Source of the DNA: Owenia fusiformis
Lineage: Eukaryota; Annelida; Polychaeta; Sabellida; Oweniidae
Length of the DNA: 64,000 nucleotides
Assembly (NCBI GenBank): GCA_903813345.2
Contig: CAIIXF020000006.1
Location: 24,747,936-24,811,935 of the forward strand
Reading direction: 5' to 3'
Part shown: positions 11,373 through 57,661 of the stretch, one piece after another
Numbering within the stretch: the first letter of the stretch is position 1
Layout: every line of letters begins with the position of its first letter
Position numbers and translations under genes: made by a program
The notes under the pieces: model-generated
What the model was told of the DNA's origin: nothing
The model's input: the letters and a program-made list of their open reading frames with translations, nothing else
The model's database searches: none

Positions 11373-13759
11373 GGACTCTTTCAAAACCAACACAAATGGC
11401 GCAAAGTAGCACTTTCCAGAAAATAAACAGAGTCCAGCCTCTCGATAGATTTTCATACCTGTTTTTTAAAACTAACACAAATGTCCAAAAGTAACACTTT
11501 TCCAGAAAAATAAACAGAGTCCAGCCTCTCGATAGATTTTCATACCTGTTTTTCAAAACTAACACAAATGGCCAAAAGTAACACTTTTCCAGAAAAATAA
11601 CATAATCCAGCCTAACGATAGATTTTCATACCTTTTTTGAAAACCAACACAAATGACCAAAAGTAACACTTTTCCAGACAAGAGTCCAGCCTATCGATAG
11701 ATTTTGATACCTTTTTTCAAAACCAACACAAATGGCGAAAAGTAACACTTTTTCAGAAAATAAATAGAGTTCAGCCTATCGATAGATTTTGATACCTTTT
11801 TTCAAAACCAACACAAATGGCTAAAAGTAACACTTTTTCAGAAAATAAACAGAGTCCAGCATACGATAGATTTTCATACCTTTTTCAAAACCAACACAAA
11901 TGGCTAAAAGTAACACTTTTTCAGAAAATAAATAGAGTCCAGGCGTATCGATAGATTTTCATACCTTTTTCAAAACCAACACAAATGGCGAAAAGTAACA
12001 CTTTTTCAGAAAATAAACAGAGTCCAGCATACGATAGATTTTCATACCTTTTTCAAAACCAACACAAATGGCCAAAAGTAAGACTTTTCCAGAAAATAAT
12101 CAGAGTTCAGCCCATCAATAGATTTTCATACCTTTTTTCAAAACCAACACAAATGGTTAAAAGTAACACTTTTCCAGAAAATAAACAAAGTTCAGCCAAT
12201 CGATAGATTTTGATACCTTTTTTCAAAACCAACACAAATGGCAAAAAGTAACACTTTTTCAGTAAATAAATAGAGTCCAGGCATATCGATAGATTTTCAT
12301 ACCTTTTTTGAAAACCAACACAAATGACCAAAAGTAACACTTTTCCAGACAATAAACAGAGTCCAGCCTATCGATAGATTTTGATACCTTTTTTCAAAAC
12401 CAACACAAATGGCCAAAAGTAACACTTTTCAGAAAATAAACAGAGTCCAGCCTATCGATAGATTTTGATACCTTTTTTCAAAACCAACACAAATGGCGAA
12501 AAGTAACACTTTTTCAGAAAATAAATAGAGTTCAGCCTATCGATAGATTTTGATACCTTTTTTCAAAACCAACACAAATGGCTAAAAGTAACACTTTTTC
12601 AGAAAATAAATAGAGTCCAGGCGTATCAATAGATTTTCATACCTTTTTTGAAAACCAACACAAATGACCAAAAGTAACACTTTTCCAGACAAGAGTCCAG
12701 CCTATCGATAGATTTTGATACCTTTTTTCAAAACCAACACAAATGGCGAAAAGTAACACTTTTTCAGAAAATAAACAGAGTCCAGCATACGATAGATTTT
12801 CATACCTTTTTCAAAACCAACACAAATGGCCAAAAGTAACACTTTTCCAGAAAATAATCAGAGTTCAGCCCATCGATAGATTTTCATACCTTTTTTCAAA
12901 ACCAACACAAATGGTTAAAAGTAACACTTTTCCAGAAAATAAACAAAGTTCAGCCAATCGATAGATTTTGATACCTTTTTTCAAAACCAACACAAATGGC
13001 AAAAAGTAACACTTTTTCAGTAAATAAATAGAGTCCAGGCGTATCGATAGATTTTCATACCTTTTTTGAAAACCAACACAAATGACCAAAAGTAACACTT
13101 TTCCAGACAAGAGTTCAGCCTATCGATAGATTTTGATACCTTTCGAGTCGAGGCGTATCGATAGATTTTTTGAAAACCAACACAAATGACCAAAAGTAAC
13201 ACTTTTCCAGACAAGAGTCCAGCCTATCGATAGATTTTCGTACCTTTTTTCAAAAGCAACACAAATGGCCAAAAGTAGCACATTTCCAGAAAATAAACAG
13301 AGTCCAACATACGATAGATTTTCATACCTTTTTTCAAAACCAACACAAATGGCGAAAAGTAACACTTTTCCAGAAAATAATCAGAGTCCAGCATATGATA
13401 GATTTTCATACCTTTTTTCAAAACCAACACAAATGGTGAAAAGTAACACTTTTCCAGAAAATAAACAGAGTCCAGCATATGATAGATTTTTATACCTTTT
13501 TTCAAAACCAAGACAAATGGCCAAAAGTAACACTTTTCCAGGAAATAATCAGAGTTCAGCCCATCGATAGATTTTCATACCTTTTTTTGAAAACCAACAC
13601 AAATGGCCAAAAGTAACACTTTTCAGAAAATAAACAGAGTCCTGTCTAGCGATAGATTTTATACCTTTTTTCAAAACCAACACAAATGACCAAAAGTAAC
13701 ACTTTTCCAGAAAATAAACAGAGACCAACCTATCGATAGATTTTTATACCTTTTTTTCA
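11373..13759. repeat. 83-bp tandem array, left arm
   Basis: About 28-29 head-to-tail copies of an 83-bp unit built of CAAAACCAACACAAATGG, CCAAAAGTAACACTTTTCC, AGAAAATAAACAGAGTCCAG and ATCGATAGATTTTCATACC. Some units are shortened. A 758-bp higher-order period is visible, since the block at about 11985-12352 recurs nearly unchanged at about 12743-13110. The open frames running through it are a by-product of the unit length, not genes. Confidence 0.95.
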
Positions 13760-13770
13760 AAAGGCCGTGG

Positions 13771-13930
13771 CTGGAGAGCCTTAAATTTTAAGGCTCTTTA
13801 GCATTTTGGTAACCAATTTGGCTAGAGAGCCTTAAATTTTAAGGTTCTTTAGCATTTCGGCTGAAAGAGCCTAAAATTTTAAGGCTCTTTAGCATTTTGA
13901 TAGCCAATTTCGCTAGAGAGCCTTAAAGGA
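13771..13930. repeat. Tandem palindromic units (AGAGCCTTAAATTTTAAGGCTCT)
   Basis: Four units of about 50 bp, each centred on the palindrome made of AGAGCCTTAAA and TTTAAGGCTCT and followed by TTAGCATTTTGG. The unit can form a perfect stem of about 11 bp. It directly abuts the left satellite array, and no mirror copy was found beside the right array. Confidence 0.85.
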
Positions 13931-14039
13931 ATTCTAGGTGACAGAAATGACAAAATATTGTTTCTGGGACGAGATCAAACGACTTTGACTATATTCTATA
14001 CCCAACCTATTTTGTAATTTAACAATCAGCACAAATATA

Positions 14040-15149
14040 CAGGGTGGGCCAAAAAATTTTGCAACTTTTTTAAAAGGCTAGAAAAGTATCATAACATGAA
14101 GGTATTGACATAAAAATTGATTTGCAGAAAGTTTAGGATAGGCATATTTTACAATTCAAATATCTAAGCTTATACTGACTACTAATTTTTTTGACAGTTC
14201 TTTGAATACCAATGGTAAATTGTTCATGTGTCCAAGATTTACTGTTTTTCCAAGAAAATGTGACTTTTTATGATTTTATGTGATCAACAATAACACATTC
14301 ATTATGTTCACTGAGTCTGCTACAATCTTGGATAACTGTTTATTCAATATCTAGGACAGTTTTATATTAATATCTACTCACAATACAATGGTATTATGTT
14401 ATACTGTATCTATAAAACTATTATTAATCATATGTTATTACATCCACCTTTCACCTTCACTATTGCTCCCAGCCATCGGGCAAGGGTTGCTTTGAAATAT
14501 CTGGAGGAAGATACCTCTAGATTTATTAGTCCTGATGAATTGCTGCCCAATACACCAGATGCCAACCCCTGTGACTATCACACATGGAGGCACCTGGAGC
14601 AGTTTATTGCAATTAATGGTAATCCACACACAAACTATTGATCAACTAAAAGAAGTTCTGCAGGAGAAATGGAAACTACCGCAAGAATCGCTGAATGGCG
14701 CCGTTGCAGTTCCGCCCTCGTGTCTGTGAGATAGTGAAGATGAAAGGCGGATGCATGGAACATTTTTAAATATATAATTAATAGATACAGTATAACATAA
14801 TACGTTAGTAAGTACATACTAATATAAAACTGTACTAGCCATTGGTTAAACAAATATCAAAGATTGTAGCAGATTTAGTGAACATAATGAATGTGTTGTT
14901 GTTGATCACATAATATCATGAAAAGTCACATTTTCTTGGGAAAACATTAAATCTCGGACACATGAACAATTTACCATTGATATTCAAAGAACTGTCAAAC
15001 AAATTAGAAGTCAGTATTAGCTTAGATATTTGAATGATAAAATATGCCTATCCTAAACTTTCTGTAAATCAATTTTTATGTCAATACCTTCATGTTATGA
15101 TACTTTTCTAGCCTTTTAAAAAAGTTGCAAAATTTTTTGGCCCACCCTG
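14040..15149. mobile_element. Decayed mariner-type transposon
   Basis: A 1.1-kb element flanked by TA (14038-14039 and 15150-15151). Its termini CAGGGTGGGCCAAAAAATT and mirror form unusually long inverted arms of about 300 bp. The middle keeps only a transposase C-terminal fragment. TA duplication and TIR style are those of Tc1/mariner elements. It occupies the centre of the 10726-18148 foldback. Confidence 0.85.
14396..14760 (+). pseudogene. Mariner transposase, C-terminal remnant
   Basis: Residual coding with APSHRARVALKYLEED, FISPDELLPNTPDANPCDYHTW and, after a frameshift near 14630, DQLKEVLQEKWKLPQESL. The PD-NPCDYHTW segment is the mariner-type motif that carries the third catalytic Asp; the HTH and the first two Asp residues are gone. 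It is a dead fragment inside the TA-flanked element. Confidence 0.75.
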
Positions 15150-15485
15150 TACATACCATATTAGCGGATATCGGACAAATTCATAAAAAATATTTTTTGA
15201 TCGATAAAATCGCTGATTATTAAACCGGAAGTGTCTTCTCTGAGGTCCGCGAAGAAGATGAAGAAGAAAACATATAAAGATTTCAGTCATTTCAAATTTG
15301 CAGTCGATTTGGTTTTAAATGGTTCTAAATTATCTTCGAATGCTTACTATGACTTCTATTAGTACTGTTTTGACTTCCCCACTTCATAAAAAGAAGATTA
15401 TCACCTTTTACTCGACTCATAAATTTACTTCCGGTCTACCGAGAAAAATAAAAGTTTGAACCTCAGTCAAGATTTGAAAAAAAAC
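15150..15485. other. Unique spacer inside the foldback
   Basis: Between the mariner remnant and the right array. It contains AACCGGAAGTG and GAAGAAGATGAAGAAGAA words but no exon with splice sites I could defend and no mirror partner in the left half. Confidence 0.35.
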
Positions 15486-16996
15486 TTTTTGTTTATTTTC
15501 TGGAAAAGTGTTACTTTTTGCCATTTATGTTGCCTTTTAAAAAAGGAAAGAAAATCGATATATACTGAAGGCTGGACTCTGTTTATTTTCTGGAAAAGTG
15601 TTACTTTTGGCAATTTGTGTTGGTTTTGAAAAAAGGTATGAAAATCTATCGATAGGCTGAACTCTGTTTAGTGTTACTTTTGGCCATTTGTGTTGTTTTT
15701 GAAAAAAGGTATGAAAATCTATCGTATGTTGGACTCTGTTTATTTTCTGGAAATGTGCTACTTTTGGCCATTTGTGTTGGTTTTGAAAAAAGGTACGAAA
15801 ATCTATCCTATGCTGGACTCTGTTTATTTTCTGAAAAGTGTTACTTTTTGCCATTTGTGTTGGTTTTGAAAAAAGGTATGAAAATCTATCGTATGCTGGA
15901 CTCTGATTATTTTCTGAAAAGTGTTACTTTTCGCCATTTGTGTTGGTTTTGAAAAAAGGTATGAAAATCTATCGTATGCTGGACTCTGTTTATTTTCTGA
16001 AAAGTGTTACTTTTCGCCATTTGTGTTGGTTTTGAAAAAAGGTATGAAAATCTATCGTATGCTGGACTCTGTTTATTTTCTGAAAAGTGTTACTTTTCGC
16101 CATTTGTGTTGGTTTTGAAAAAAGATATGAAAATCTATCGTATGCTGGAATCTGTTTATTTTCTGAAAAGTGTTACTTTTCGCCATTTGTGTTGGTTTTG
16201 AAAAAAGGTATGAAAATCTATCGTATGCTGGACTCTGTTTATTTTCTGAAAAGTGTTACTTTTCGCCATTTGTGTTGGTTTTGAAAAAAGGTATGAAAAT
16301 CTATTGTATGCTGGACTCTGTTTATTTTCTGAAACGTTTCTGAAAAGTGTTACTTTTTGCCATTTGTGTTGGTTTTGAAAAAAGGAATGAAAATCTATCG
16401 AATGCTGGACTCTGTTTATTTTCTGAAAAGTGTTACTTTTCGCCATTTGTGTTGGTTTTGAAAAAAGGTATCAAAATCTATCCTATGCTGGACTCTGTTT
16501 ATTTTCTGGAAAGTGCTACTTTTTGCCATTTGTGTTGGTTTTGAAAAAAGGTATCAAAATCTATCCTATGCTGGACTCTGTTTATTTTCTGGAAAGTGCT
16601 ACTTTTTGCCATTTGTGTTGGTTTTGAAAAAAGGTATGAAAATCTATCCTATGCTGGACTCTGTTTATTTTCTGAAAAGTGTTACTTTTCGCCATTTGTG
16701 TTGGTTTTGAAAAAAGGTATAAAAATCTATCGATAGACTTGACTCTGTTTATTTTCTGGAAAGTGCTACTTTTTGCCATTTGTGTTGGTTTTGAAAAAAG
16801 GTATGAAAATCTATCGTATGCTGGACTCTGTTTATTTTCTGGAAAAGTGATACTTTTGGCCATTTGTGTTGGTTTTGAAAAAAGGTATAAAAATCTATCG
16901 ATAGGCTGAACTCTGTTTATTTCCTTGAAAAGTGTTACTTTTGGCCATTTGTGTTGGTTTTGAAAAAAGGTATGAAAATCTATCGAAAGGCTGGAC
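15486..16996. repeat. 83-bp tandem array, right arm (inverted relative to the left array)
   Basis: About 18 copies of the same 83-bp unit in reverse-complement orientation (TTTATTTTCTGGAAAAGTG, TTACTTTTGGCCATTTGTG, TTGGTTTTGAAAAAAGGTA). Units at 15921, 16004 and 16087 lie exactly 83 bp apart. This array is more homogeneous than the left one, consistent with more recent expansion or conversion. Confidence 0.95.
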
Positions 16997-17821
16997 TGAA
17001 CTGTATGTTTAAATGCCTGGTCATTTTAAATTTTATTCTAAGTCCAAAAGTAGCACAAAATAAAAACCCAATAATCGCTACCCTATATTGTGACACTGAT
17101 GTACGATTCGAACATGAAAACTCACCAGAATGTTCTGAATATTCATTATGGTCCGCCATTACTACGACCTGCCGTTATGACGTCACACATTACACGTATT
17201 ACCAGGGGTATTCTTCGCGAATACACCCCGGTGAAATGTTGAATTTGTTTAAAGTTTATAGAAGGCGTGAATACAGTCATGTTCGAATCTATAATATAGA
17301 CTCGGCGTGTCCGTTGCCATGTTGTTGATGTTTATAGACCATTGATGTCACAAGTAAATCTCATCTTGCACGTGTGACTTTTTAGGATGAAAGATGGCAA
17401 TATCTTGCATGGGGTAAAGGTGGCTGTATCTTTGTTAGTCATATGAGAAAGCTGTATAATAACAATGCAAAAGTCCTTACACCTGTGTCTTATAACAGTG
17501 TTGCCTAAATGTTCATTGTTATACAGTATTCCCTTAATTCTTACCCCTTTCCTGCCCAATGACATCAATTAGTATTTTGTGACTAATGTGTCAATTTGAT
17601 TTTCTCTGGTTTATCTTCTAAATATTCTTGATGTAATTTTTGTATTTAATTCAAACGAATCTATCATATTTTCATTTTATTGCAATAATTCTGAATCATA
17701 ATGCATCGAACATTGACATATTAATGATAGCAGTGCTTATTTTTTGGCAGGAAAGGGTAAAGTGTAGTATAACATGGTCTTGGGCTGTTAATAAAATGTA
17801 TGGGGACATCCAGAGTAATAA
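16997..17821. other. Right-arm sequence of the foldback, no gene seen
   Basis: 17010-17110 mirrors about 11205-11305. Within it, TACGATTCGAACATG (about 17102) and CATGTTCGAATCTATA (about 17278) form a further inverted pair around about 180 bp, possibly a small nested MITE containing GCGAATACACCCC. 17300-17821 has no left-arm counterpart. No exon was supported. Confidence 0.45.
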
Positions 17822-18299
17822 TTAGCATTTTATATATAAAGACCTTTGTCTGTGTACTTTTACAGAGCAACCTGATTTAAAGTGATTTTGGTCAGTTGGC
17901 GATCCGAGGTAAGTTTGATGTCACAAAATTGGAAAAAGTCACATCGGTGTTCTAGGTATAAGCTATGTTCTAAACGTGATATTTTGAGAAAAAAATTAAT
18001 CAACTGTCTCCAAATTTCTCCAAATTTACACAGAAGGTGTATTATATGCCTTAAATTATGTGTGAAAAGTCTCATCACGTTAACTTGCCATTTACAAAAG
18101 TTATTTGAGGTTTTCCTAAATAGGAAAAGACTTTTGATACAGAGGGTACTTTGAATTTTGAAAAAAAGAATTGACATGATATTAATTGAGTATCTATTTA
18201 CCACTTAACAGTATGTGATATGTCCTCCAGCACCCTAGGTTACATTGTGAAACTCCACGACAGTGAACACACCAGTGTAGATCTTAGCAGCAATTTGGT

Positions 18300-21300: not shown

Positions 21301-24300
21301 CATAAAGGAAAAACTGAAATGGGTGATAGATAAAGCGTTCAGAGGAGGAACTAACCAAAAGATAACAGTAGGTGGAGATGAAGCCAAATGGGGCGGAAAG
21401 GCGGATAATAAAAAGGCATATACCAAAGGAGAGTGCAATGATCTAGTGGATTTCATCGTGGATACAGCCTACTTTAAAGCAGGGAAATCAATTCTAAGAC
21501 AGAAAATTGGAATACCGATGGAAATCGATCCGGCGCCATATATGGCAAACCTGTACTTATACAGTTATGAATTTCAAGCCATTGAGAAAATGTATAGGGA
21601 AGACTACACCAAAGTACTAAAATATGCTAAAACTACAAGATTCATCGATGATTTATGTACTATAAACAACGACGGAGAAATGGAGACTGATATGAAGAAC
21701 ATCTATCCTGAAGAACTAGTGTTAAACAAGGAAAATGAGAAGGATACAGAAACAACTTTTCTGGACATACAAATGAAAATAGTAAATAAACAAATCACTA
21801 CAAAACTATACGACAAAAGGGAAAATTTCAATTTCCAAATAGTCTCATATCCTGATTTATCTGGAAATATTCCTAGAAACCAGTCTTATGGAATATTTAT
21901 ATCACAAATAATAAGGATTTCAAGAATCTGCAGTCAACTGGAAGATGCAACAAACAGAGTTACCAGCCTGGGAAATAAACTACAATGTCAAGGCTATAGG
22001 AGCAACATACTAAATTCATACACTAAGAAAGCTATAACAAGAAATAAATGGATATGTACTAAATACAATATGCAGGAGAATACCATCATGAAGCATTGGA
22101 AAATTAATGAGAGAAGAGAACATTAACAAATGAATATGAAACAGTATGTTCTCCGCAAAGAGGGTAAACTAAGAAGACAAATCAACATAAGACCAACAGT
22201 AAGGGGAAGGGGAGAGTTTTCCGGCCGGATCAAAACGTTTAACCCACCTATGCGCAGTCTCAAGTCTGTGGACCCTGAAGAAAGATAACTAACATCGCAA
22301 TCAAATCAAGACAAAGAAAGAAGAAAATGAATGAAGAAACCAATGCAGCAACAATCAATGATGTCCGTCCGTACGTCGGGGAGTTTTCTCCAAAACCGCT
22401 ACAGATATCACCTTCAAATTTTCAGGAGAGTGCAAACAGATGTGGATGAAAAAAAATTTACTCGATTCCTACTTCCTGTCGGCCATTTTGAAGTCAAATG
22501 CTAAAATCCTTGTCTGCAAACTTTAAGAAAAACGGCTTCACAGTTGCTTTTAAAACGTTAACATCTTGTTCAGCTCACTTCATTCTAGATCTGATTAGGT
22601 TTTGGACCTGTTAGCTCAGTCATGTCAGCCATTTTGAATGTTTTAAGAAAAGTTAGCGCACAATAATACTTTGTATCATATTGAATGGTGTTTTTCAGTT
22701 TTCATACTTTAACTATTTAGTAGCTTTATAAATAATTTCAGGTGTGCTTTGTTGTAAAAGCCTATGTTATTGTTAACAGTAGTTATATGTGATAATTTTG
22801 TACAAAGAAATCAGCAAAAACTCATAATCGCTTTTTTATTGTCGGCCATTTTGGATTTTTCCGTCCTAAAATCTTGTCTGTAAAGTCTTGTCTAAGCGTT
22901 TTCAGGTGAACCGTTTGGTAGATCAATTTCAAATTTTCAGGGATGATTCTTAATATGAAAGTCTAGATCTGATTAGTTTTTGGGCATTCTGGGTAAATGT
23001 CAAGGCAGCCATTTTGGATTTTCCATCCTAAAATCTTGTCTGTAAAGTCTTATCTACGCATTTTCAGGTGAACTGTTTGGTAGATCAATTTCAAATTTTC
23101 AGGGATGATTGTCAGTATGAAAATCTAGATCTGATTAGTTTTTGGGCATTCTGGGTAAATGTCAAGGCAGCCATTTTGGATTTTCCGTCTTAAAATCTTG
23201 CCTGTAAAGTCTTGTCTACGCGTTTTTAGGTGAACCATTTGGTAGATCAATTTGAAATTTTCAGGGATGATTCTCAGTATGAAAATCTAGATCTGATTAG
23301 TTGTTGGGCATTCTGGGTAAATGTCAAGGCAGCCATTTTGGATTTTCTGCCCTAAAATCAAGGAGGATTGGCTCCCAGAGTGCACCACCGATATTCTGTC
23401 CCATATATGGGTATGTCGTAATACAAAATTCGAATTCAAACAGCCGCCATTTTATTCACTTCAACATTTAAATCGTGAATTTTGGTCTTATTTCCAAACG
23501 AAAAATTCCAAAACTCACAAGAAACGATCGAGATATTGGTTCGAATCTTTTGAATTCTTTATTTTGAATTTATAGTCGGTTTTAATTTCAGAAAATAACG
23601 ACATTTCGACGTTTTCATTGTTGGAAAATATCGAGTTTCGATCCTGGGAGCCAATCCTCCTTGCCCTAAAATCTTGTCTGTAAAGTCTTGTCTACACATT
23701 TCCAGGTGAACTGTTTGGTAGATCAATTTCAAATTTTCAGGGATGATTCTTAGTATGAAAATCTAGATCTGATTAGTTTTTATGCATTCTGGATGAATGT
23801 CAAGGCAGCCATTTTGGATTTTCCATCTTAAAATCTTGCCCGTAAAGTCTTGTCTACTCGTTTTTTGGTGAACCGTTTGGTAGATCAATTTCAAATTTTC
23901 AGGAATGATTCTTAGTATGAAAATCTAAATCTGATTAGTTTTTGGGCATTCTGGGTAAATGTCAAGGCAGCCATTTTGGATTTTCTGTCCTAAAATCTTG
24001 TTTGTTAAGTCTTATCTACGCATTTCCAGGTGAACCGTTTGGTAGATCAATTTCAAATTTTCAGGGATGATTCTTAGTATGAAAATCTAGAACAAATTAG
24101 TTTTTTGGCATTCTGGATAAATGTCAAGGCAGCCATTTTGGATTTTCTGTCCTCATATCTTGTCTGTAAAGTCTTGTTTACATGTTTTCTGGTTAACTGT
24201 GTGACGGATCAATTTCAAATTTTCAGGGGTGGTTCTTAGTATGAAAATCTAGAACTGTTTAAATTTTTTGGCATTCTGGGTAAATTTTAAGGTGGCCAAT

Positions 24301-27300
24301 TTGTATTTTCCGTCCACAAATTGTGTCGGTAAAGTCTTGTCTACTCATTTTTAGGATAACCATTTGACGGGATCACCCAAAGGTGGGGACATTTTGTACA
24401 CATTTGTGTTCTTGTATATAAATGCCCATGGGCCTATTAGGGAGAAGCTAAAGTAGGAAATGTACTGAGAGGACTACCCTTTGATTGCCTTTAAGGACCA
24501 CTGTTGAGTTAACATGTATACCCATCTGATGATATATCTAACTTATAGATAAGCATATAAGGTCTTAGAGATAAATATTCTCCCTGCCCTAGCCTGTTGC
24601 AATTTTGCCGTACATCTCATATTATCCACATTTTTGTTTAACGAATCACTGTAACTGTGTATAATTTGCAGAACCTCAACTGAAAGCCATTTCAAGTCAG
24701 GGAATGTTACCATCCCAAGAAAAAAAAGAAAAAGAAGGAAGAAACTTCAATCTGACCCAACTGAAAGCCATCTCCAGACAGTGAATGAAATCATCCCAAA
24801 GAAAAGAAGGAAGATACTTCCACCTGGGCCAAGAGTACGCCCACCAAGTGAGAGAATCAAGGCCCGTAAAGCACAAGCAGAACCAGAAGTAAATGTACCT
24901 CCGCCACAAGATCAACATGTTGAAAAAGAGCCTCAATCTTTACCACCACAGGCTCAAAATCTTGAAGCAGAGCTGCAAGGTTTACCACCAGAGGCTCAAA
25001 ATGTTGAAATAGACCTTCAGGCATCACCACAGGTTCATGCAGGTCAACCTGAAGTCATAGATTGGTATACTGGAGCATCCGTCAGGAATGTGATCTTGGA
25101 AGGGTTCAAGGCAGGGACGTTTTTCACTGTCAAGACCCTCAACAAGGTAATTTATTTTAAAAGACATAGTGTCACGGAAATTGTGAATAAAACCATAAGT
25201 ACATGTTTGTATAAAATATTCACCATTGTAGTAGCCACTAAAACACAATGTCAATCAGTCCTTTCATCAAATCAGTTTCACTATTTTTCTGATATTATGA
25301 AGGTCTCAAAATTATCTAGAGATATTTTTTGCCATATATGCATTTACGGATTTACATCTATGTTCTTATTTCTTGAGGTTACAAAAGTTAAAATTTGTGA
25401 AACATAATTGGCAATGTTTAAGAATATGTGGGAAAGTTAATTTGATTGAGACCAGCCATCGCTTTCTCCTGATAACCATTGTGAAATATTAAGCAAATAC
25501 ATTCTCTACGATCACTTTGCATTTCAAAGAAATATAGAATATTTGTTTTAACCTGTGAACATTTATTCTAATTAATAAATATAAGATAAACCCATAAGTT
25601 CACAAAGTTACGTACATGTATCATTGTAAAGTACACTTTTATTTTCGTCCAGTGAAGTTGTCAGAATTCCTGGGTGGGCAATATGCCGAGCAATACATCT
25701 TTTATAATCTAAAAATTGAGGTAGTTGTGAAATACACTATGGTATTTTTGATGACATGGTATTGAAGAGCCAATCAAATCCCACGATTTCTAGCAATGAC
25801 ATGATGATGTGTTTTATGGATTAAGGCGATGGCTCTGGCTGGATCTTGACCCTTTGATTTGCTTATGGACTTCGAGATTGGATTTTGTCCGTCCCACATC
25901 ATTTGAGAGAATGCTCTATCTTGCATGAATACTACAGTATATCTAGTACCTATAACTACTTTTAATATCATTATTGTTGGGTATCAATTTTAAATTTATC
26001 CTTCACCGTTATATAGTAGATGTATTGTTATGATTTCTGTATGAATGTAATGTCCTTTGGTGCTATGGTCTCAGATTTTGATATTGGTACTTGAATGGCA
26101 GTGGAGGGGGATATAAGACACGGAATGTACTAAAAACCCTTCGACCCTATGACCTACGACTTACAGGGTGTCAAGAATTTTTGGAATATATTTTTATAAA
26201 AACCCTGTGACCTTCAATTTCTCAGTCCATATGAAGTTGCTGGAAATATTACTATGTTTATAGAACTTCAGAATCGGTCCCTGGGGAGTGTAAGATATTT
26301 GTTGTATTCAAGCACATAATTTTGAATATGAACGTTTCATACCTCCTCAGTGAATTCTTTTTTTAATTCTTTTAAAACATATATTTAACTTATACGCTAC
26401 CATATACGATAAAAGTTGGTCTCTCTTATGCAATATAAATAAATGTTCACTCATTACGATATACGATATCCCTATACATCCCCTTCATGAAAGCGAAAGT
26501 GCGTTTACAACCGGACACGAAAAGAAAATATAAATGCGACGCCTGCTGATAAGAACATTTAAGATATGCGTAAATATAACTTCAAAAAATACAGGATAAA
26601 GATATATAAAACATTAAAAACTTGGAATTAAGTGGAAATATGCGACAAATATACATTATGAAGTCATTACAGTAAAATTTTAAATGTTAGGAACTACTTT
26701 GAATTTAGAAAATAAGCAATCAAATGACTATATTGCAACAGTATATAAAAAATAGAAACATATGTATTTGTCCTAACTTTTGTATATTTCAGATAGTTAT
26801 GTATAATGTGCAGTAAAGGTGTGGCCTTTTGTAATTTAGGGAGTTTCAGCCATGTTAATTTTTCCGAAAATAACATGGCGGAGAAGCATCAAAATATAAG
26901 AGGGCACAGACAGGATAGCTAAACTACAAAACAAACTAAAATATACAAAAGTTAGGACATGTATAAATGTTTCTATTTTTACATATACTCAGGGCTGTCA
27001 ACTTGGGACCAACTAATATGAGTGACTTCAAAATGTTGGACACCTAAGTCCAAATCTGAACACTTTTGTCCAAATTTTGAACACCTTTGGCCAACTTTTA
27101 AACACCTTTGGCCAAAGTTTGAGCACCTTTGCCAAACTTTGAACACCTCAAATTTTTCGCGCTCGCTACGCTCGCGTTGTCGTCAACGGGGGGGGGGGGG
27201 GGGGGGGGGGGGGGTAGGTACGAAAAATTTCCAATGAACATGCGTGACACATACGGGATTAGCGTGACAAATCCGAACAAATTGCGTTCGTTTTTTTCCG

Positions 27301-29892: not shown

Positions 29893-30122
29893 TACAGTGA
29901 AACCTCTGAAGTGGAACACCTCTAGCAATGGAACACCTCTTAAGTGGAACACCTCTGTAAGTGGAACACCTCTAGAAGTGAAACACCTCTGTAAATGGAA
30001 CACTTTTCAGAGTCCCAAGACTTCATGTTTAATGAAACTCTAAAATAAAAGAGGAACAACTCACAAATTGAACACTTTTTAGAGGTACCAAAGGTGTTCC
30101 ACTTAGAGGTACTCCAGTAAAC
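29893..30122. repeat. AGTGGAACACCTCT tandem/MITE family copy
   Basis: Starts TACAGTGAAACCTCTGAAG, then five imperfect AGTGGAACACCTCT units, CAGAGTCCCAAGACTTC, GAGGTACCAAAGGTGTTCC, and ends near CCAGTAAAC. It is related in inverted orientation to 35685-35812 (AGAGTCCCAAGAC / GTCTTGGGACTCT). Confidence 0.65.
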
Positions 30123-31720: not shown

Positions 31721-34700
31721 ATGTTGACAGCTTTGTCACGTGCATTGGCCAAAGTTCACATTGAATATGCAGTGGCTGCATTGAATTGTCAGACTAGAAA
31801 CATGGTAAGAAAAATTACTTTTATCTTTATTAATGAACGGGTAAATATTTAAATCATATATCAGTTTAATATTTGATTAATTTGTGCCTTATTAACCTCA
31901 TTTGTTTAAATCTTGTTTGCGGTACGAGTATTATATTGCAATAGCGCTAGCAGTAAAATGTACTGTTCTACTATTTCTAGTACACTGTTCTTAACAACAT
32001 TTTGACTATGATCGGAATTTTAAGATCAATTTTTCAAAAAAATCCCTTTGAGAGAAAAATAAACAAGATTTGAATGAATAACCCTATTATTATATATACT
32101 ATAAACCATCAAATGGTAAATTATTAAACTGTGATGTACCCATGGTAATGTTTTGTGCACTTTACCTATATGGCAAAATGATCATTCGTAAAATGTGCCA
32201 TAAAGGTCTCATGACTGAGTATTATTGTCCCATGATCAAATCACATACGAAAATCATGGTGCAGTGTGTGCTTCATGTTAAAGTAATTGTGTCATCCTCA
32301 ACTATACAGGGTGTCTGGAAAGTAAAGATACAAATGCTCTTTTTTAAGAGATTTGGGTCTTTTGAAATGAAACTGCTACAGATTGTAGAGGAAGATTATT
32401 ACAATATATCTACCAACTTTCATCACATATAGTTTGAACGTGTTCAAGTTACGGTTGTTATGGTTACAGGTGTGATAGGTATGCGGAGCAGTTCCAGAAC
32501 ATCGCTAAAATGTAAAAAATTGCTAAAATACAACCATCTGAGACAGTGTTTTTTGTTGTATTTTCTATCAATGTTTTGCTTTGTTTGGTTTGTATTATTA
32601 CTGTCATAGTTTTTTCTTTTATATAATGATGTCATTGCTACATATCAGAACTATTTTGTGTCACTAACCAGTACAATCAAAGAAATACCATACAAGTGTT
32701 TAGAAAAAACAGTCTCTGGATTAGTTGGAAAGGCAATATTGCATCTCCATAATACACCAATTCTCAAAGCAAAGAAAACAATTCTTATAATGGATTGTTA
32801 CAATTTTCTATAAAATGCCCCATATTCACCTGATAGAGCCTTTTTTTACTTCTACCTAATGACCATCTGAAAGTAATATTTGTAGAAGGTCAACATACAA
32901 AATGAGTCTCAGCTGGAAGTCAATGCTATAAGCAATTTGAAAGACGGACAGCAATGATTTTGTCAAGTCTTTGAATCGGCGGTCAAGACGCACCAAAAAT
33001 GTTTAGATAATGGGGAAAATATTAAATATTCAATGATAGTAGTTAAATGAAGATATCAAATAATGTTACAGTCCTAATCCTTATGCTGTTGTAGTACATA
33101 ATTTGATGTAATATAGGAATAGATGGTAGAATGCCAAGATGTTATGAGCAGGAAAGAGATTTGTAAATAACATTTGTGACGTTGCTCCACATACCCTCGA
33201 CTACCGTTACCATAACGACCATAACTTTCTCATTTTAAAACTAAAAGTCATGACCGTGGCAGGATATATTGCTTTAATGTCCTTCTACATTCTGGAGCAA
33301 TTTCATCTCATAACAGGTAAATCTCTTAAAATGAGAGCATTTGTATCTTTACTTTCCGGACACCCTGTATGTACAAACTATAGTAAATGTGCTAAATTAT
33401 AGTTACTAGTAATTGATAGAATGGGTTATTTTTTATGTATATAATATATTTACATGTAATGTTGAAATGACTACTAGTACTTCGTCCATTTTTTACTTTT
33501 TCGTCAAAGTTTAGAAATACCTTTACTATGATATGACAGTCTCAGAAGTTTTAATATTACGGTAATTCCTTTCAGTCGACAGATGCATCATCAAAGTTTG
33601 CTCTTGCTGATAGGTTAAAAGGCTCTGGTGGGAATGTCTGGTAAGTTATTCAAGTAAAATGTGTTTCAGAACTTTTACAAAGTATGAGCTTTCAGAACTC
33701 GTATCTTACAAAATATGAGCTTTCAATACTCAGATTTTACAATTTAACATGAGCTTTCCGAGCTCATATCTTACAAAAACATGAGCTTTCAGAACTCATA
33801 CTTTACAAAACATGAGCTTTCAGAACTCATATTACTTTACAAAACATGAGCTTTCAGAACTCATACTTTACAAAACATGAGCTTTCAGAACTCATACTAC
33901 TTTACAAAACATGAGCTTTCAGAACTCATACTTTACAAAACATGAGCTTTCAGAACTCATACTACTTTACAAAACATGAGCTTTCAGAACTCATACTTTA
34001 CAAAACATGAGCTTTCAGAACTCATACTACTTTACAAAACATGAGCTTTCAGAACTCATACTTTACAAAACATGAGCTTTCAGAACTCATACTACTTTAC
34101 AAAACATGAGCTTTCAGAACTCATACTTTACAAAATATGAGCTTTCAGAACTCACATTTTATGTGTTTATGGAACTATCTGTAATTGTTGCTCAAGATAA
34201 ATGTTATATCATATGAAGCGTTAGTATGCACTTTAAGATGCAGCTTTATGTAATCGAGGTGTTACTTCTATATGTAATTGAGGTGTTAATCTGAGGCATA
34301 ACATACTAACTATACAGTATTGAAGTATAAATGTGTAAATGTTGTAGGGTTGAGTTTGGAAAACTAGCTACAGATTATAAGGCTACTAATCTTGGTCAGG
34401 GTTTCCCTGACTTTTCTGCTCCTGAATATGTGAAAGAAGCTCTCTGTGATGCTGTAAACAGCCCAAATGTTTTTATGAACCAGTACACTAGGAGCTATGT
34501 AAGTACTCATGACTCCCACACTCCTAGAACATACAATAAAATGCTTCATTTAAAATCTGTGATTAAAGTTAGTGATGTTGAAAACAGAATCCCAGTGATA
34601 TTTGCAAATGTTGTGTGTGCAGGAATCCTATCCAAAAAGCTAGATCATGTTGATTTATTTTGTCTTTTTACATAATGCACATGACTTGCGTAGACCTGCA

Positions 34701-37700
34701 ATATCCTCCCATAATGCAATGCTAAGAGCAGACGGACTCACCATACTGTACATTACTTGCATAGACCTGCAATATCCTCCCATAATGCAATGCTAAGAGC
34801 AGACGGACTCACCATACTGTACATGACTTGCAATTGACTTCAAATATCCTTCCATAATGCAACTGTATATGATTTGCATAGACCTCAAAATAATCATCCC
34901 ATATTGCAATGCTACATAGCAGATGGACTCACCTTCCATGCTTTCTGATTCTCAGGGACACCCAAGATTGGTGAATGCCCTGGCTAAGACCTTCTCTCCT
35001 ATGTATGGTAGAGAGATTGATCCAATGACGGAGACTTGTGTTACAGTTGGGGCATATGGCTCTTTGTATGCAGCAATACAGGGCCTGGTCAATCCTGGAG
35101 ATGAGGTTGGTACATGTATTTCCCTAATACTACTCCTATATCTACTCCCCCCCCCTCTTTATCTACTTCACCACTCATGAATATGATTTATACTTTTTCA
35201 AAAGCAGAGCATTTCTTTTGATAACATCTGTGAACAAACAAGCTTAGAGAAATTAAAGGGTTACTTTTCAAGAATATTTCATCATTTTCAATCTTTTTTA
35301 GGTGATAATTATCGAGCCATTTTTTGACTGCTATGAACCAATGGTAAGATGTGCTGGGGGAACTCCAGTCTTTGTACCACTGAAACCTGTAAGTACAGCA
35401 TTACATAATATAATATGATCAATTTAATTTTATATGATATGATATGATATATATGACATGATATAATAAAATGTTTTGTGTTAAGCTACAACATTTAATA
35501 TGCAAAGTATTTTTGCAACAATGTATTTATTTCTATTATAATGTAAATTGTTGTTATTTACCATATTTTATCAAAATTGTTTACTTGACGCAAAATGTTT
35601 AAAATATCAGCTCAGAAAAATCTATGAAGGGCTGAGGAATGTTTCGGCATCTCTTGTTCTTCTCTTATATAGTAACTCATGGCTAAGTGGAACACCTTTG
35701 GTACCAATAAAAAGTGTTCCACTTGGGAGGTGTTCCACTTCAGATTAAATCAGTCGGTCTTGGGACTCTGAAAAGGTGCTCCGCTTCATGAGGTGTTCCA
35801 CTTTACATGTATCACTAAATATAATTGCGACACCGTTCAATGAATCTTTATGTTACACATTGATTTCTAGTTCACATGTCCGTATGTTATTTTTGCAGAC
35901 CAAAACTGAAGGAACTGTTACTAGTGCTGACTGGAAATATGATCTTGAAGAACTTAGCAGTAAATTCAATGAAAAGACAAAGCTGATTATTCTCAACACC
36001 CCTCATAACCCAGTTGGCAAAGTAAGCTCTCTGATAATTTTTTTTCTCTTGATCTAATCAATCAATCAACAATTTAATTAATCAACCAACCAAGCAATCT
36101 TAACAATCAATCAACCAAACTATTTAATCAATCAGCCATACCAAGCAATTTTATCAATCAATCAACCAAGCAATTTAATCAATCAATCAACCAAGCAATT
36201 TAATCAATCAATCAACCAAGCAATTTAATCAATCAATCAACCGAGCAATTTAATCAGTCAATCAACTTGATTGGTTTAGTTGGTTGGATTGTAAATATTA
36301 ACTTCTTAAAATTAAAGCAATGATTCAATTTAGGGATAAGGGAAACCTATGTATTGTAAGTATTATCAAGAAACCATCTCTCACAGTCTGAGGGGAAGGA
36401 TGGACATTTATTTACCAAAAATAGAATGAAATAATTGCTGTATGCATTTACATGTAAAACTCAGTGCTTTATTTATTCCAGATATTCACTAGATCTGAAC
36501 TAGAAGAGATCTCAGCTCTATGCAAGAAACACAATGTGGTTGTCATATCAGATGAGGTATATGAATGGTTGGTGTACTCAGGGGCTGAGCATATCAAAAT
36601 AGGTGAGTCCGTCTGCTCTGTAGCATTGCATTATGGGAAGATAGCTGAGGGTCTTTTTCATAGTGATTGGTGAATGAGTTTATGAATGGTTGGTGTACTC
36701 GGGGGCTGAACATATCAAAATAGGTGAGTATGTCTGCTCTGTAGCATTGCATTATGGGAGGATATCTATTAATAGTCTATCAAAGTGATTGGTGAATGAG
36801 TTTATGAATGGTTGGTGTACTCATGGGCTGAACATATTAAAATTGGTGAGTCCGTCTGCTCTGTAGCATTGCATTATGGGAGGATATCTATAGTCTACAT
36901 CAAAGTGATTGGTGAATGAGTTTATGAATGGTTGGTGTACTCGGGGGCTGAACATATCAAAATAGGTGAGTCTGTCTGATCTGTAGCATTGCATTGTGGG
37001 AAGATAGCTGAGGGTCTTTTCCATAGTGATTGGTGAATGAGTTTAGGAATGGTTGGTGTACTCAGGGGCTGAGCATATCAAAATAGGTGAGTCCGTCTGC
37101 TCTGTAGCATTGCATAATGGGAGGATATATATATTCTATATCATAGTGATTTGTGAATGAGTTTATGAATGGTTGGTTGTACTCGGGGCTGAACATATCA
37201 AAATAGGTGAGTCTGTCTAAATGATATGTTTTCCTTTTAGGTCTAAGGATAATGAAATCATCAATCCAACTCTCCTGAAAATCCTACATCAAAACATTCA
37301 CCAAAATGCCAGATTTATGAGTGAGGATCTTCTTTAATATTAGAATTCATATTCTGAGGGAGACTTAATGAACAAATCCCCCTGTTCTTTCAGCAACTTT
37401 GCCTGGAATGTGGGAGAGAACAATAACTATTGGCAGTGCTGGAAAGACTTTTAATGTAACAGGGTGGAAACTTGGCTGGTCTATAGGCCCTAGCCATCTT
37501 ATACAATGTCTCACGACAGTACATCAGAATTGTAACTATACCTGCCCTACCCCCATACAGGTAAGTCTTTGATCCATATTGCATATTATTTTCTTGGTCA
37601 GCCTCTTTTGACTTTACTAAACTGCCCTCTTTGACTTTACTCAAATGGCCCCTTTTGACTTTACTCATTTGGCCTTTTTGCCTTTACTCAATTGGCCCCT

Positions 37701-40700
37701 TTGGACTTACTTCAAATGGACCATTTTGACTACTCAACTGGCCCCTTTTGACTTTAATCAACTGGCCCATTTTGATTTTACTCAGCCCATTTTGACTTTA
37801 CTCTATTGGCTCCTTTTAACTTCACTCAATTGGTCCTTTTTGACATTACTCAAATGGCCTCTTTTGACTTTACTCAATTTGCCTCTTTTGACTTCACTCA
37901 ATTAGCCCCTTTGTGACTTTGAACTTAAGCTTTTTCTACCATTATGGGCCATTTTGGGGAACCAGTATTTTTGGTGAAAAATACCCAGTTTATTTTTGTT
38001 ATTGGTAAACACTTCTGTAATTATTTCTGCTTGAACTTTCTGTCATCTGTGCCAATGATTTTATGGCTCTAAAAATGCATGCTCATTTCAGTCTCATTTT
38101 AAATGCTTTTAGGAGGCTGTAGCAGTGGGATTTGAGACAGAGTTACCAAGAATTAACACAAAGGAATGTTTCTACCATTCACTACCTGCTGAACTCCAAG
38201 TGAAGCGTGACAGACTGGCTGAACTTCTCAAATCAGTAGGGATGACACCAACAATACCAGAGGGTGGATATTTCATGATGGCAGATATAAGTCAACTAGG
38301 TAAAACTCAAAACATTGATAAGATGTTGTTACCATGTACATGTAGTATGTTATTTGATTATTATATCACCACCACAAGTGTTGACATTTTGTTATAGTGT
38401 CCAACTTTTCTGTGGATGGTGTTTGGTGGATGTACACTTTTAGGATCTTATCTGAGATTTTAATTATAACTTTGTGGTTACACATGTATTTCATTGGTGT
38501 ATGTTTTGCCAAAAATGATTCCAGTAAATAACTCCAGTAATTTGTAGCATGTTGAAAATTCAAAAAATGAGTTCAGAAAACTATTTTTCCCAGTTGAGAT
38601 AACGGGACTATTTTTCTTTTGATTGTGCTTCGATCTTTGCACACAATCAAAGTCTCTGTTGGTTAATACTTTTCACCATTGAAATTATAATCAGGAGTCA
38701 AATTTCAATTATATTATTTGACTCAACTGGACCAAACTGGGAGGCATATTTGTTCAACATTCATAAATTAATCCCTTTTACCATGACCCAGGTTTATTCT
38801 GAAAATATGCTCTAATTTGTTCACTTAGGAATTTTTCAATTATATTTTCATAGATTCATTCAAATGGGGATATGCAAGCTAAACAGAATGATTATTTTGT
38901 TCATTTCCAAATCTATTCCTTTCAGATTTCAAGGTAGATGAGTCAAATCCAGAACCTAAAGATTACCAATTCGTTAAATGGATGACACGAGAAAAGGTAA
39001 TAATGATCACATATGTATAAAGCAATAGCTCGAAATGAGTGGACCAAAAATTATTTTAAAATACTGTGAAACACAGAATCAGAGCTATAGGGTTGACAAA
39101 ATTGCAAGCAATGTGCACAATTGACCTACCAATCTATTCCTTACAATCCCAAATACAATATCTCCCAAAAATCAAGGATTGTTATAAATTGATGAGGGAT
39201 TCAACGTGTGAAAATGTGCAATTTCTCACAAATAATAAATGTGCTCATCACATAAATAGAGAATTACAATTAAACACATTTTTGTAAAAACCTTTAAGTT
39301 TCTTAAAATAAAGTATGCACCTTGGGTATTTTTAGAAAATAGATATGACAAGGAACAATATGAGCCAAAAGTATTTTAAACTTGAAAAAATGAAAGGTTG
39401 CTTCCTAGATCAGATACTCCTTTTGAAAGGGAACATTTAAGAGTAGAACCAGTTGAAAGGAAATAAACCCCAAACATTCCAAATATGATTAACATACAAA
39501 GAAATAGTACACGGAATTCATGTTTCTTATAATTTTTGATGGAACAAATCGTGAAACTTTGTGGGGTGGTTCTGTATGGTATTTCAAGCAATTTTAGTCG
39601 CCTGTACGAAGATGTACAAGCCTCATTTTGGAAAAATGTCATGTTATACCCCTCAGCCATTTTCGGGGAGGGGGTCAAAAATGAAAAAAATCATAGCTAT
39701 CCAAATTTTTAGATATCAGGCCATTTTATGATAAATTTGATGATTACAAAGAATATGTCACACTCAAAAAAATTATTTGAGCTGAATTTAACTTAAAAGT
39801 CTCTCTTTAACCCTTTGACAACCAATATTTTGAAATGTCTAATAGACAAACACTTTCTAAAAGGATCAACATTTTTTTAATTCCATGATATTTTTTACTG
39901 TAAAAAATCACAGATGATTTGGAGGCTATTCCTAATACCCATGCAAAACCATGATAAAAAATATTAAGTATGAATAGAATAAAAAATTCTTTAGCACACT
40001 GGTGCTTCTTCCAGGATTGAAGGGGTACCATTGAAAATTGATAAAATCTAGCAAGTCATATATCTAAGCATATCACAAAGATTCAAATTGACTTCAGATC
40101 CATGTAGGGTACCTCAAGACATGCAAAATTTGATTGTTGATATTTTATGAATCACTTTCAAAAGTGCTGATTCGGCACATTTTAACATTTCTGGGTCTGA
40201 GTTTGACATTATGTTGAGAACTGTTTAATGGTTCACTTGACAAAAGAGCAATAGTTCTAGCTTATACATCATATGACATTAGAAGAATTATTGACTAAAT
40301 ACTCAAGTTTCACTAAAATATTGTCATCCATATAAAAGAATATGCAATTGCATAGAGGAATTAGAAAAACACACGGAAAGTATCACAACAGGCTTCAGAC
40401 ATTCACATGTTGGATTTGGGCTATTTCTGAGGTTTTAAACAGGAGCATATGTTAGACCAATGCATTAACTCCAGGACAAGCACTCATAGAGATGATAAAA
40501 AGATTTGAACTTGAGACAGGGAAGGTGCAAACATCCCACCAACATGTTTTTTCAATGCTTGATGCATCATTTTACAGGGTGTCCCGAAAGTTTGCCCCCC
40601 CTAGGCAGACATATACCAGTGTCATCATAGTATGTGTCATATATCATTTTAAAGCTCATCCAAAGTTACATTGAATTGCCAAGAATCATGAATCAACTCT

Positions 40701-43700
40701 CAAATGGGAAAAAGTGACAGTCATTTTAAAATTAAGTGTTTGGCCAAAATAAAGTTCAATTTCACACCCCATTACAAGTCAATGAGTCCTCCCTTGGTCA
40801 TGTTATCAGCAGCAATTCTTTTCAGATAGGACCATAAAAGCTCTACGGGGTGTGGAATTTTGTAATCCTCTAAAAACCTTTCAAGGCACTTTTGAAGAGT
40901 TTCCTTGGAGTATCAACCCTCACTGTCTCTTTTTCCAACTCAATATCCATCCAACCCGAAAAGAATTGCTACTGTTAAGATGGCCCTGGAGGACACATTG
41001 ACAAGTGATTTGGTGTTAAATTGAATTTAATTTTGGCCAAACACTAAAAATTGAAATGCCTGTAATTTTTTCACATTTGGGGGTTGAACCATGATACTTG
41101 CCGAATCAATGTAACTTTGGATAAATGATATAATACATACTATGAAGACAATGGAATATGTCTGCCTAGGGGGGATACTTTTGGGACACCCTGTATGTTA
41201 TGTTTTGAGACAGAGTTAATTTTTAAAAGGAAAAATGCATTCCTTTTGGGATAAAGTGGAAAACAATATAACAATATTTCCCATGGCATTTTCCCATATC
41301 CCACAGGGAAAACTCATGCAATCCATTGTTTTCAGCTTAATTTTGGTCACCCACAATTGACATCTTTAAAACCCCTGATTGAATGCATTTTTTCTTTTAA
41401 GAGGATAACTGTGTCCCAAAACGCAACATATTGATGAAACAAACATTAAAAACAGGTGCGGAAACAGGTGCGGCCTGACTTTTTACTGATAATGGTGCTT
41501 AGGTCTAGGTTGTGTCCTGATTTTTGACTGCTACATAGGACTTCTTCAAATGACCAAATGGTATGAATGTGGGTCGTGTCACCCATGAAAATCTTCACAG
41601 AACCAATCAAAATATTTGTTTCACCGGGAGTCACACTTATAAATGTTAATTTTTGGTCCTCTATTAATAGAAGCTATTGATTTGATGTTTAGCTTGTATA
41701 ATCATACTGGGATTCATTGAAATTATCATTTAAATTTTGTTTTGTTTATTCAAGCAATAGGATTACATACTAGAATAGTCGAAAGAGGTAACACACCTTG
41801 GATGCAATAATGCTGGCTTTTCTCTCCTGTTACTATGTGCTGTGTCACCTGTGAATATCTTCACATCACTAGTCAAAAGTCTCCAAATATTTGTTAAATG
41901 AGCAGTCACATCTTTGAATGATAATTTTATGAATGATAATTTTACGACTGTCATTTTTTGGTCTCATATTTCTAATCAAGTTCTCCATTCTGTATAACCC
42001 TATAAAGTGACAAAGAGAAAGAACCAATTGTTCCAGAACCCAGCAGAAAAAAGAAGAAATCTAAGTATAGACCAGCCATAAGGAAAACAAACCCCAACTA
42101 TCCAATACCATAATCCAACGTGAATGGGAAACAATGTCTAGTGCCCCTCATCCCTACCATAAAAAATTTACAGTTCAGACTATTTAAAAGAGCATATTCT
42201 TTTTCATTGCCTATTATCACTAACTCTTTTTGAAGCACTTAGTATTCTTTTGGCAGGAATTCCATCTCAATCAGCTTGAACACTTATTGTTACTGTTATG
42301 ATTTTTGATTTCAAATGTTCAAGGATAAGCAACTAGATTGTTTAAATATCAGCAGAAGATGTTATTTGCTCATCTGAACCCCGTCACCTTTACTTATCTT
42401 ATAAAGAGCAAGTTAACCCTTAATTGGTCTTTTATTTTTACACCCTCTAAAGGTTTTTGGGGTATTTCGCAATAACTTTGCAACCAGAGAAGCTTTTTTC
42501 ATTCTGACTTCAGTTCTACATAGTTTAATCAATTACCTTTTAGAATATGTATGCATTATTTATCATGAATGCAAAAAAATATGTGAAAACCTTATCATAA
42601 GGGTTCAGGCGTTTTAGCATTTTGTATCATTTCGTAGCATATAATATATAACCCTGTATGAATTGAATGTCTTTTGGTGATAGTGATGTTCTGTGGTCTC
42701 AGGTAGCACAAAAGTCATCATGCGATTTACATCTGGTTTGTTTTATCTGAAAGGAATTGAATTAATTGAGGATGAGATGGAATTTCCTGTTGATAGAATG
42801 ATTATTTCTGATATAATTATTGCAAAGAATGAACTCTGGGGACCCCAAAAACCATTTAAGGGTTAATGGTGTGTAATGATAAAATCTACATATTATAATA
42901 CCATGTGTAGTTTGTAGGTGCTCTTCAAACAATTAACTATGTTGCCATGTAAAATGTCACTACCACTTGTGATGACATATTGTTAAAGTCTAATATTTTT
43001 GTGGGTGGTGTTCAGTGGTTGGTGTTTGACAGTTGTTAGTCTGGGGTCCCAGTAGGGCTCTAATCAATTATTCAAAAATACTTAACAAAGTTTGTTTAGA
43101 AATATATCTAATACATTCAATGTCACAAAGTGTTTATAGATGTGCTTTGTTATCAAATGTGCTTAATGGTTATACATTACTTGTTTGTAGCCACCACAAT
43201 AATTATAAATTATTACTGGGCCTCTAGGAAGACCAGTTTTGTACTGAAAGAGCTACTCAGAATAAATATAGTTTCCAAATCAATTCAAATCAAATAAGAT
43301 ACAGGGTAAGCATTTTAATAAAAGAAATGAAGCAAAATGTGAACTTTTTCTATCAATTACATTTTCTTGTATATGGATAAAGATATTTCATTGTGAGTTA
43401 AAGATCTGTTACATCTTTTTCCAGCAACATAAAATGTAAAAATCAAAATATTTGCTCAATCTACAATTGTGCTATTGAATAGTTTCTAACAAGATTTCGA
43501 ACTTTGACACTGATATAATAAAATATGCTGAATCAGCACTTTTGAGCCTGAACTGTCACCTGCAGGCAATAAAATACAATGCAACATACTGACATAGGAA
43601 TTTCATCAATGATACAACTAATGCACAAAATATAACTAGTATGACAGTATGCCTTAATTTGACATTTATGTCTACTTACCCCCCCCCCCCCCCTCCATAA

Positions 43701-56429: not shown

Positions 56430-56771
56430 TATTACATTTTAAGGTAGGCACATTCAACTCCAGTTTTTACATTTTAAGGTAGGCACATCCAATGCCAGCA
56501 TTTTTAGGTAGACCCATGTGACTCCACATTTAAGGTAACTAATCAATTCGATTCCACTTATTACATCTGGAGGCAGGCCCATTCAATCCCAGCAATTAAA
56601 TGTTTAACAAGGCAAGCCCATTTGAGTCATTGACACTGATATTATAAAGGCAGGCCCATTCAAATCTACTTCTTGCATTTTCTAGTTATTTTATTGGAAC
56701 GTAGGCCCATTTGACCCCAATTTTACAGTTTAAGGCAAGTTAATTTAACTCCAATTTTTACAGTGTAAGGT
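56430..56771. repeat. AGGCCCATTCAA-type tandem repeat
   Basis: About ten irregular units of 30-45 bp built from TTTTAAGGTAGGC(A/C)CATTCAA-TCCAG. The array continues at 57657 (AAGGTAGGCCCATTCAATT), so it is interrupted by the palindrome at 56772-57656. Confidence 0.8.
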
Positions 56772-57656: not shown

Positions 57657-57661
57657 AAGGT

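Follow-up and report, generated by a model that had tools for sequence, protein, structure and literature searches.

Foldback transposons, Tetris among them, carry inverted arms built of tandem repeats. In intronic inverted-repeat circularization, as at the Alu pairs of human HIPK3, complementary repeats of at least 40 nt lie in both flanking introns, while in introners homology begins at a splice site. In the docking/selector exons of Dscam, srp, and 14-3-3zeta, tandem copies of one arm compete for the other arm, and a published account proposes tandem duplication of one arm as the origin of these systems (PMC6071210). The present analysis concerns a kynurenine aminotransferase (KYAT3-type) gene on the + strand of a 64,000-nt stretch of the annelid Owenia fusiformis (contig CAIIXF020000006.1; hereafter, the window). 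A short segment starting at the exon 7 donor appears to have been amplified twice within the gene, in opposite orientations: one amplification would have produced a 121-bp tandem array in intron 7 that includes the exon 7 tail, and the other a set of 71-bp antisense repeats upstream of exon 4. Modeling of the RNA strongly supports a duplex between the two arrays that would loop out exons 4–7.

The likenesses and the differences are both specific. Like the HIPK3 Alu pairs, the KYAT3 arms are inverted repeats of at least 40 nt just outside the exons, and the layout, which the first-pass annotation had taken for one that favors circularization or skipping, agrees with those published for circularization. 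Unlike the Alu pairs, however, the arms consist of tandem arrays that, across the window, were observed in no gene but this one. As in docking/selector exons, tandem copies of one arm compete for the other arm, but KYAT3 repeats only the last 43–51 nt of exon 7 together with the donor, not whole exons, and its alternative donors give an early stop. As in introners, the intronic homology begins at a splice site, here the start of intron 7; unlike introners, it is confined, within the 64 kb, to two introns of one gene, and the copy in intron 3 is not at an intron end. Finally, the inverted tandem-repeat arms recall foldback transposons, whereas host exons lie between the KYAT3 arms, one arm bears exon sequence, and the two arms share only a core of ~42 nt, which is part of each unit.

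On the basis of splice signals and reading frame, ten exons of the gene were modeled, the first a putative start exon at 31721 and the tenth ending at 38996; they give an open reading of 402 residues, with one or more additional exons near 44307. The best solved relatives of the product are chains 5veh and 1yiy, both named kynurenine aminotransferase (532.6 bits), which we take to be mosquito proteins; kynurenine--oxoglutarate transaminase 3 follows at 511 bits, with transaminase 1 behind at 421.2 bits, and the best Pfam family is Aminotran_1_2. The exon 4 acceptor (CTCAG/GGACAC) and the exon 7 donor (AATAG/GTGAGT) are canonical, and the rebuilt model places the exon 4 start (34956) and the exon 7 end (36602) exactly where the first-pass annotation had them. 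Exons 4–7 total 481 nt, which is not a multiple of three, and ~1.65 kb separate the end of intron 3 from the exon 7 donor.

The sense array, at 36552–37218, begins within the exon 7 tail, heads intron 7, and comprises 5.5 copies of the 121-bp unit. Each unit consists of the last 43–51 nt of exon 7, the donor GTGAGT, the ~42-nt core, a variable stretch, and a conserved end, so that six GTGAGT donors, the real one included, stand in a row. Among the five full units, mean identity is 0.935 in the exon copy, 0.932 in the core, 0.557 in the next 19 nt, and 0.978 at the unit end. Six sense copies had been claimed; there are five full cores, the first being that of the real donor, and a truncated sixth (S6), in which the core starts at 37206, departs after 13 nt, and keeps only GGTGAGTCTGTCT. 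The array in intron 3 is a 71-bp repeat in antisense orientation at 34671–34934, with three full cores of 42 nt (A1, A2, and A4). The fourth of the three to four antisense copies originally counted proves to be only partial (A3, near 34844–34862) and lacks the donor half. The exon 7 tail is repeated in every sense unit and in no antisense unit. The core sequence GGTGAGTCCGTCTGCTCTGTAGCATTGCATTATGGGAGGATAT is that of S3 itself; A1 and A2 are one gap column away from S3, and A4 differs from it at six positions. That A1 and A2 are nearer to S3 (one gap column) than to A4 (seven) might suggest gene conversion from arm to arm, but changes private to A4 suffice and the event is not claimed.

The complementarity of the two arrays was examined in this one genome. 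A1, A2, and A4 show 83–98% complementarity over 41–44 nt to the five full sense copies, in agreement with the ~40–45 bases of high identity first proposed. With up to three mismatches, the 17-mer GGTGAGTCCGTCTGCTC has eight matches in the 64 kb, three antisense and five sense, against a mean of 0.03 (maximum 1) in shuffles; an 18-mer treated in the same way also has eight matches, where 0.11 are expected, and chance is therefore excluded. Some likeness continues past the core at lower identity, one alignment joining 34690–34724 with 36864–36898 (86% over 35 nt). Among the nine modeled KYAT3 introns, 3 and 7 are the sole pair of different introns with strong complementarity (72.5 bits), the remaining pairs reaching at most 24.7 bits when listed at E up to 1. 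Whole-intron RNAduplex scores (introns 1 and 7, -337.2; introns 3 and 7, -333.3) were tried for ranking intron pairs and dropped, because that score grows with length; local alignment and controlled full folds were used instead. Internal inverted repeats occur in intron 1 (138 bits) and intron 2 (50.9 bits). Other repeats in and around the gene include a weaker inverted pair, 29976–30106 / 35683–35803 (133 nt, 75%), which lies upstream of the first modeled exon and in intron 5 and thus spans exons, two terminal-inverted-repeat elements that both begin ACAGGGTGTC, at 32304–33370 in intron 1 and at 40573–41195 in the intron after exon 10, and a 65-bp tandem array in intron 2 (33674–34161), the units of which seem, by eye, able to form small hairpins (ATGAG...CTCAT).

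The stretch from intron 3 through intron 7 (34499–37393, 2895 nt) folds with a minimum free energy of -797.7 kcal/mol, and 190 pairs join the array of intron 3 to the intron 7 side, the main unit pairings being A1–S5, A2–S3, A3–S2, and A4–S1. In the partition function, 173.7 cross pairs are expected, with each of positions 36602–36608 paired with intron 3 at a probability of 1.00. Shuffling the antisense array (n = 60) raised the energy to a mean of -677.8 kcal/mol (standard deviation, 4.6; lowest, -688.9), ~120 kcal/mol above the native value, and pairing between the donor and the array appeared in 0 of the 60 shuffles. Flipping the array gave -693.9 kcal/mol and zero cross pairs, and masking it while adding the energy of its own separate fold gave -653.8, so that the native arrangement gains 144. 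In RNAduplex the two arrays scored -274.3 versus -142.9 +/- 6.7 in 200 shuffles, and every pair of units had a favorable duplex energy. Collectively, the folds, shuffles, masking, and flip have the pairing outcompete local structure in silico, which supports the pairing across exons 4–7 that the first-pass annotation had read from base complementarity; a stable duplex, the lack of which would have counted against that reading, is predicted. When three other stretches were folded, the donor again paired with 34932 in each best fold, although in the longest stretch, 33641–38112, the register of the other units shifts to A1–S3 and A2–S2, with A3 divided between S1 and S2. All five modeled nascent transcripts likewise have the donor paired with the array in intron 3, its partner being A2 when the transcript ends at 36640, 36665, or 36780 and A4 when it ends at 36900 or 37020.

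The copies compete in these models: depending on the units present, A4 is bound to S1 in some and to S5 in others, and the partner of S1 is likewise either A2 or A4. With six GTGAGT donors facing three to four antisense copies, and with few expected pairs to the antisense array for S4 (3.6) and S6 (1.4), the locus might be a switch in which the tandem donors vie for the antisense copies and pairing selects the donor, in the manner of docking and selector sequences; duplication of one arm of a stem is described as creating just such competition (PMC6071210). Against this, all five downstream donors (5/5) lead to an identical stop after 283 residues. They would therefore yield no full-length alternative protein, leaving a poison product as the only possibility, and we consider a donor switch of this kind unlikely.

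The partner of the donor in A4 is of interest in its own right. Branch sites follow the consensus yUnAy and lie within a characteristic distance of the acceptor. Read in reverse complement, the donor GTGAGT becomes ACTCAC, and within this hexamer CTCAC matches that consensus; in A4 the A of this match (34931) is 24 nt from the acceptor AG with no AG between. The final 80 nt of intron 3 contain only one other match, which at 7 nt from the AG is likely too close for branch use. To judge from the sequence, CTCAC in A4 is thus the likeliest branch site of intron 3, and because it lies in the segment that partners the donor, the best fold pairs the exon 7 donor with that putative branch site. The reverse complement of GTRAGT, ACTYAC, also fits yUnAy. 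A bolder proposal builds on this fit: intron 3 would have adopted an inverted copy of the 5′ splice site region as its branch-site region, the one pairing would bring the downstream donor directly onto that branch site, and exons 4–7 would form a self-aligning back-splice cassette with spare donors. We regard this as very improbable.

The best explanation for the locus as a whole, which we put forward tentatively and hold at somewhat less than an even chance, is that the double inverted amplification results in a duplex around exons 4–7 and thereby in a kinetic competition, with a low-level circle and a hindered donor. Should transcription reach the exon 7 donor before intron 3 has been removed, the arrays would form a duplex of about 170–190 pairs. 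This duplex would loop exons 4–7, usually cover the real donor, and place that donor opposite the region of intron 3 that probably holds the branch site. Were intron 3 removed quickly, the normal mRNA would result, whereas slow removal would leave a duplex-bearing pre-mRNA, in which low-level back-splicing could yield a 481-nt exon 4–7 circle and use of the real donor would be hindered. Published work is consistent with parts of this scheme, one report stating that complementarity of more than 30–40 nt may suffice for circularization and that linear splicing competes with back-splicing (PMC5814467). An exon 4–7 circle or exon skipping is plausible as a predicted product. That skipping from exon 3 to exon 8, rather than circularization, is the main product seems to us very unlikely: looped-out exons are reported to be less included in human data (PMC8052449), but omission of exons 4–7 shifts the frame and meets a stop after 110 residues, and could therefore only lower expression. 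As neither circle nor skip nor downstream donor provides a full-length alternative protein, any effect that the duplex might have would consist in a circle or in reduced expression. A literature search on a circle from KYAT3 (or CCBL2) found none by title or start of abstract, and one on antisense donor arrays found no case among the matches listed by the same measure; in both instances absence is thereby unproven.

Several considerations weigh against this kinetic scheme. Thermodynamic folding of 2.9 kb leaves out proteins and splicing kinetics. Shuffled arrays also made cross pairs with the intron 7 side (mean, 49.2; maximum, 115) and left a mean of 5.7 of the 7 donor nucleotides paired somewhere, so these two measures are weak alone, and a paired donor was dropped as sole evidence. 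The donor was free when A4 was masked, and free again when A1–A3 were masked and A4 took S5. The pairing copies are therefore interchangeable, and the full set of units favors cover of the donor but does not force it; the proposal that the pairing would cover the exon 7 5′ splice site holds with the full array and fails on either masking. In addition, the donor and the likely branch site would be the two reactants of back-splicing, yet in the modeled duplex both would be buried. In the account of probed HIPK3 RNA, the splice sites are described as not joined by any pairing, unlike the KYAT3 arms, which start at the donor and overlap the likely branch site, and the same report finds exon-flanking inverted Alus only modestly predictive of circles (PMC12093144). 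Conserved pairings of human introns are reported to be enriched outside circles, to be depleted over active splice sites, and to avoid branch points (PMC8052449); the last two trends argue that an unselected by-product is at least as likely. Probably, the pairing merely accompanies the duplication and is no device that selection has shaped. If the duplex forms, the locus would be a natural test of whether pairing over reactive splice sites promotes or blocks back-splicing, because the paired arms are the donor and the probable branch site themselves. It would also illustrate how tandem and inverted duplication inside one gene can create competing pre-mRNA structures.

The by-product view leads to an explanation by neutral duplication, in which the arrays are ordinary local tandem and inverted duplications, splicing removes intron 3 ahead of the synthesis of exon 7, and the duplex is rare and without effect. 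That intron 3 finishes ~1.65 kb ahead of the exon 7 donor would allow this order of events. Moreover, the window is rich in inverted repeats, with 20 merged block pairs of inverted matches, some of them parts of one structure and the KYAT3 pair included, and it has another pair of inverted tandem arrays, far longer than this one, at 11379–13762 / 15490–16997; mirror-image repeats are therefore ordinary here. The KYAT3 arms are unusual in lying on either side of coding exons, as the weaker pair noted above also does, and in having their start at a splice donor. Exon 7 sequence stands before the core in the sense units (AAAATA/GGTGAGT, with AAAATT in S3), whereas CAGTAT (A1 and A2) or ATGGAA (A4) does so in the antisense units; the homology thus sets in no more than one base from the boundary of exon 7 and intron 7. 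If breakpoints fell at random in a unit of 121 nt, such a coincidence would by our estimate arise about 3 times in 121, which argues against neutral duplication, as does the conservation of the core (93%) relative to the adjoining 19 nt (56%), although the exon tail (94%) and the unit end (98%) have been kept too. On balance, neutral duplication is a serious possibility that we nonetheless think somewhat doubtful.

The edge at the junction could have come about by coincidence, through copying of an intron after its excision, or with an introner-like or mobile piece as the source of the donor, and the truncated S6 does not discriminate among these origins. With such a piece as the source, the core would be the end of a short GTGAGT-bearing element that landed at the exon 7 junction and, inverted, in intron 3. 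In the sense copies the homology opens with the 5′ splice site, which is also where the antisense 71-bp unit starts, and introners are described as able to bear one splice site only, with the opposite orientation allowed (PMC9860276). A mismatch-tolerant search, however, found no further core copy in the 64 kb, and the homology in intron 3 is not at the intron end; we judge this origin improbable. It is compatible with any of the readings of effect, and the likelihoods that we attach to the explanations are not mutually exclusive, origin and effect being separate questions. The start of the homology at the 5′ splice site also makes an origin from an excised, reverse-transcribed intron a candidate, though no more than that. 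By title and start of abstract, a literature search with a piece of the core found nothing on the subject, which leaves absence unproven, and exact core patterns were found in none of the viral and prokaryote contig collections, as expected, and hence uninformative, for an animal sequence.

The repeats could also act at the level of DNA, as arrays of ZNF143/Staf-like binding sites, with RNA pairing incidental. The published Staf site is given as YWCCCRNMATSCMYYRCR (PMC5006282), and core copies match it with two mismatches, accounting for 6 of the 16 matches in the window, where 1.99 are expected over the whole of it. On the other hand, 2 of the 18 positions mismatch, the copies are not independent and sit inside introns, and 5 of the other 10 matches are in an unrelated tandem array at 22845–24366. 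A DNA-level role is accordingly the explanation to which we give very little credence.

Table 1. Coordinates, in the window, of the KYAT3 exons, repeat units, and short motifs discussed in the text
Feature	Position	Strand	Comment
Antisense unit A1	34671–34742	-	Core 34701–34742, the reverse complement of GGTGAGTCC...GGATAT
Antisense unit A2	34743–34813	-	Core 34772–34813, identical to that of A1
Antisense unit A3, partial	34814–34862	-	Donor-like half lacking
Antisense unit A4	34863–34934	-	Core 34893–34934; unit end 21 nt upstream of exon 4
ACTCAC inside A4	34927–34932	+	Antisense of GTGAGT; yUnAy match CTCAC, A at 34931
KYAT3 exon 4	34956–35105	+	150 nt; rebuilt gene model
KYAT3 exon 5	35302–35388	+	87 nt; rebuilt gene model
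KYAT3 exon 6	35899–36021	+	123 nt; rebuilt gene model
KYAT3 exon 7	36482–36602	+	121 nt; donor GTGAGT at 36603; rebuilt gene model
121-bp tandem array, units S1–S6	36552–37218	+	Exon 7 tail, donor, core, and variable stretch
Sense core S1	36602–36644	+	At the real donor
Sense core S2	36723–36765	+	Pseudo-donor
Sense core S3	36845–36887	+	Pseudo-donor; A1/A2 one gap column away
Sense core S4	36965–37007	+	Pseudo-donor
Sense core S5	37086–37128	+	Pseudo-donor
Truncated unit S6	37164–37218	+	Exon 7 tail plus GGTGAGTCTGTCT; core starts 37206
Near matches (16/18) to ZNF143/Staf consensus in core	34706–34723, 34777–34794, 36622–36639, 36743–36760, 36865–36882, 36985–37002		

Elsewhere in the window, the region 10726–18148 is a nested mirror structure that looks like a foldback-type composite element: its outer arms are at 10726–11049 / 17818–18148 (77%), the long inverted arrays mentioned above consist of 83–168-bp tandem repeats (~88% over 1.5 kb), and its inner arms are at 14035–14475 / 14721–15154 (88%). 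An 808-codon open frame at 2781–5207 encodes reverse transcriptase and RNase H domains and is probably a non-LTR-like retroelement. Finally, an inverted pair at 56771–56945 / 57482–57657, with arms of 176 nt that are 97% identical and 537 nt apart, is probably a young element.

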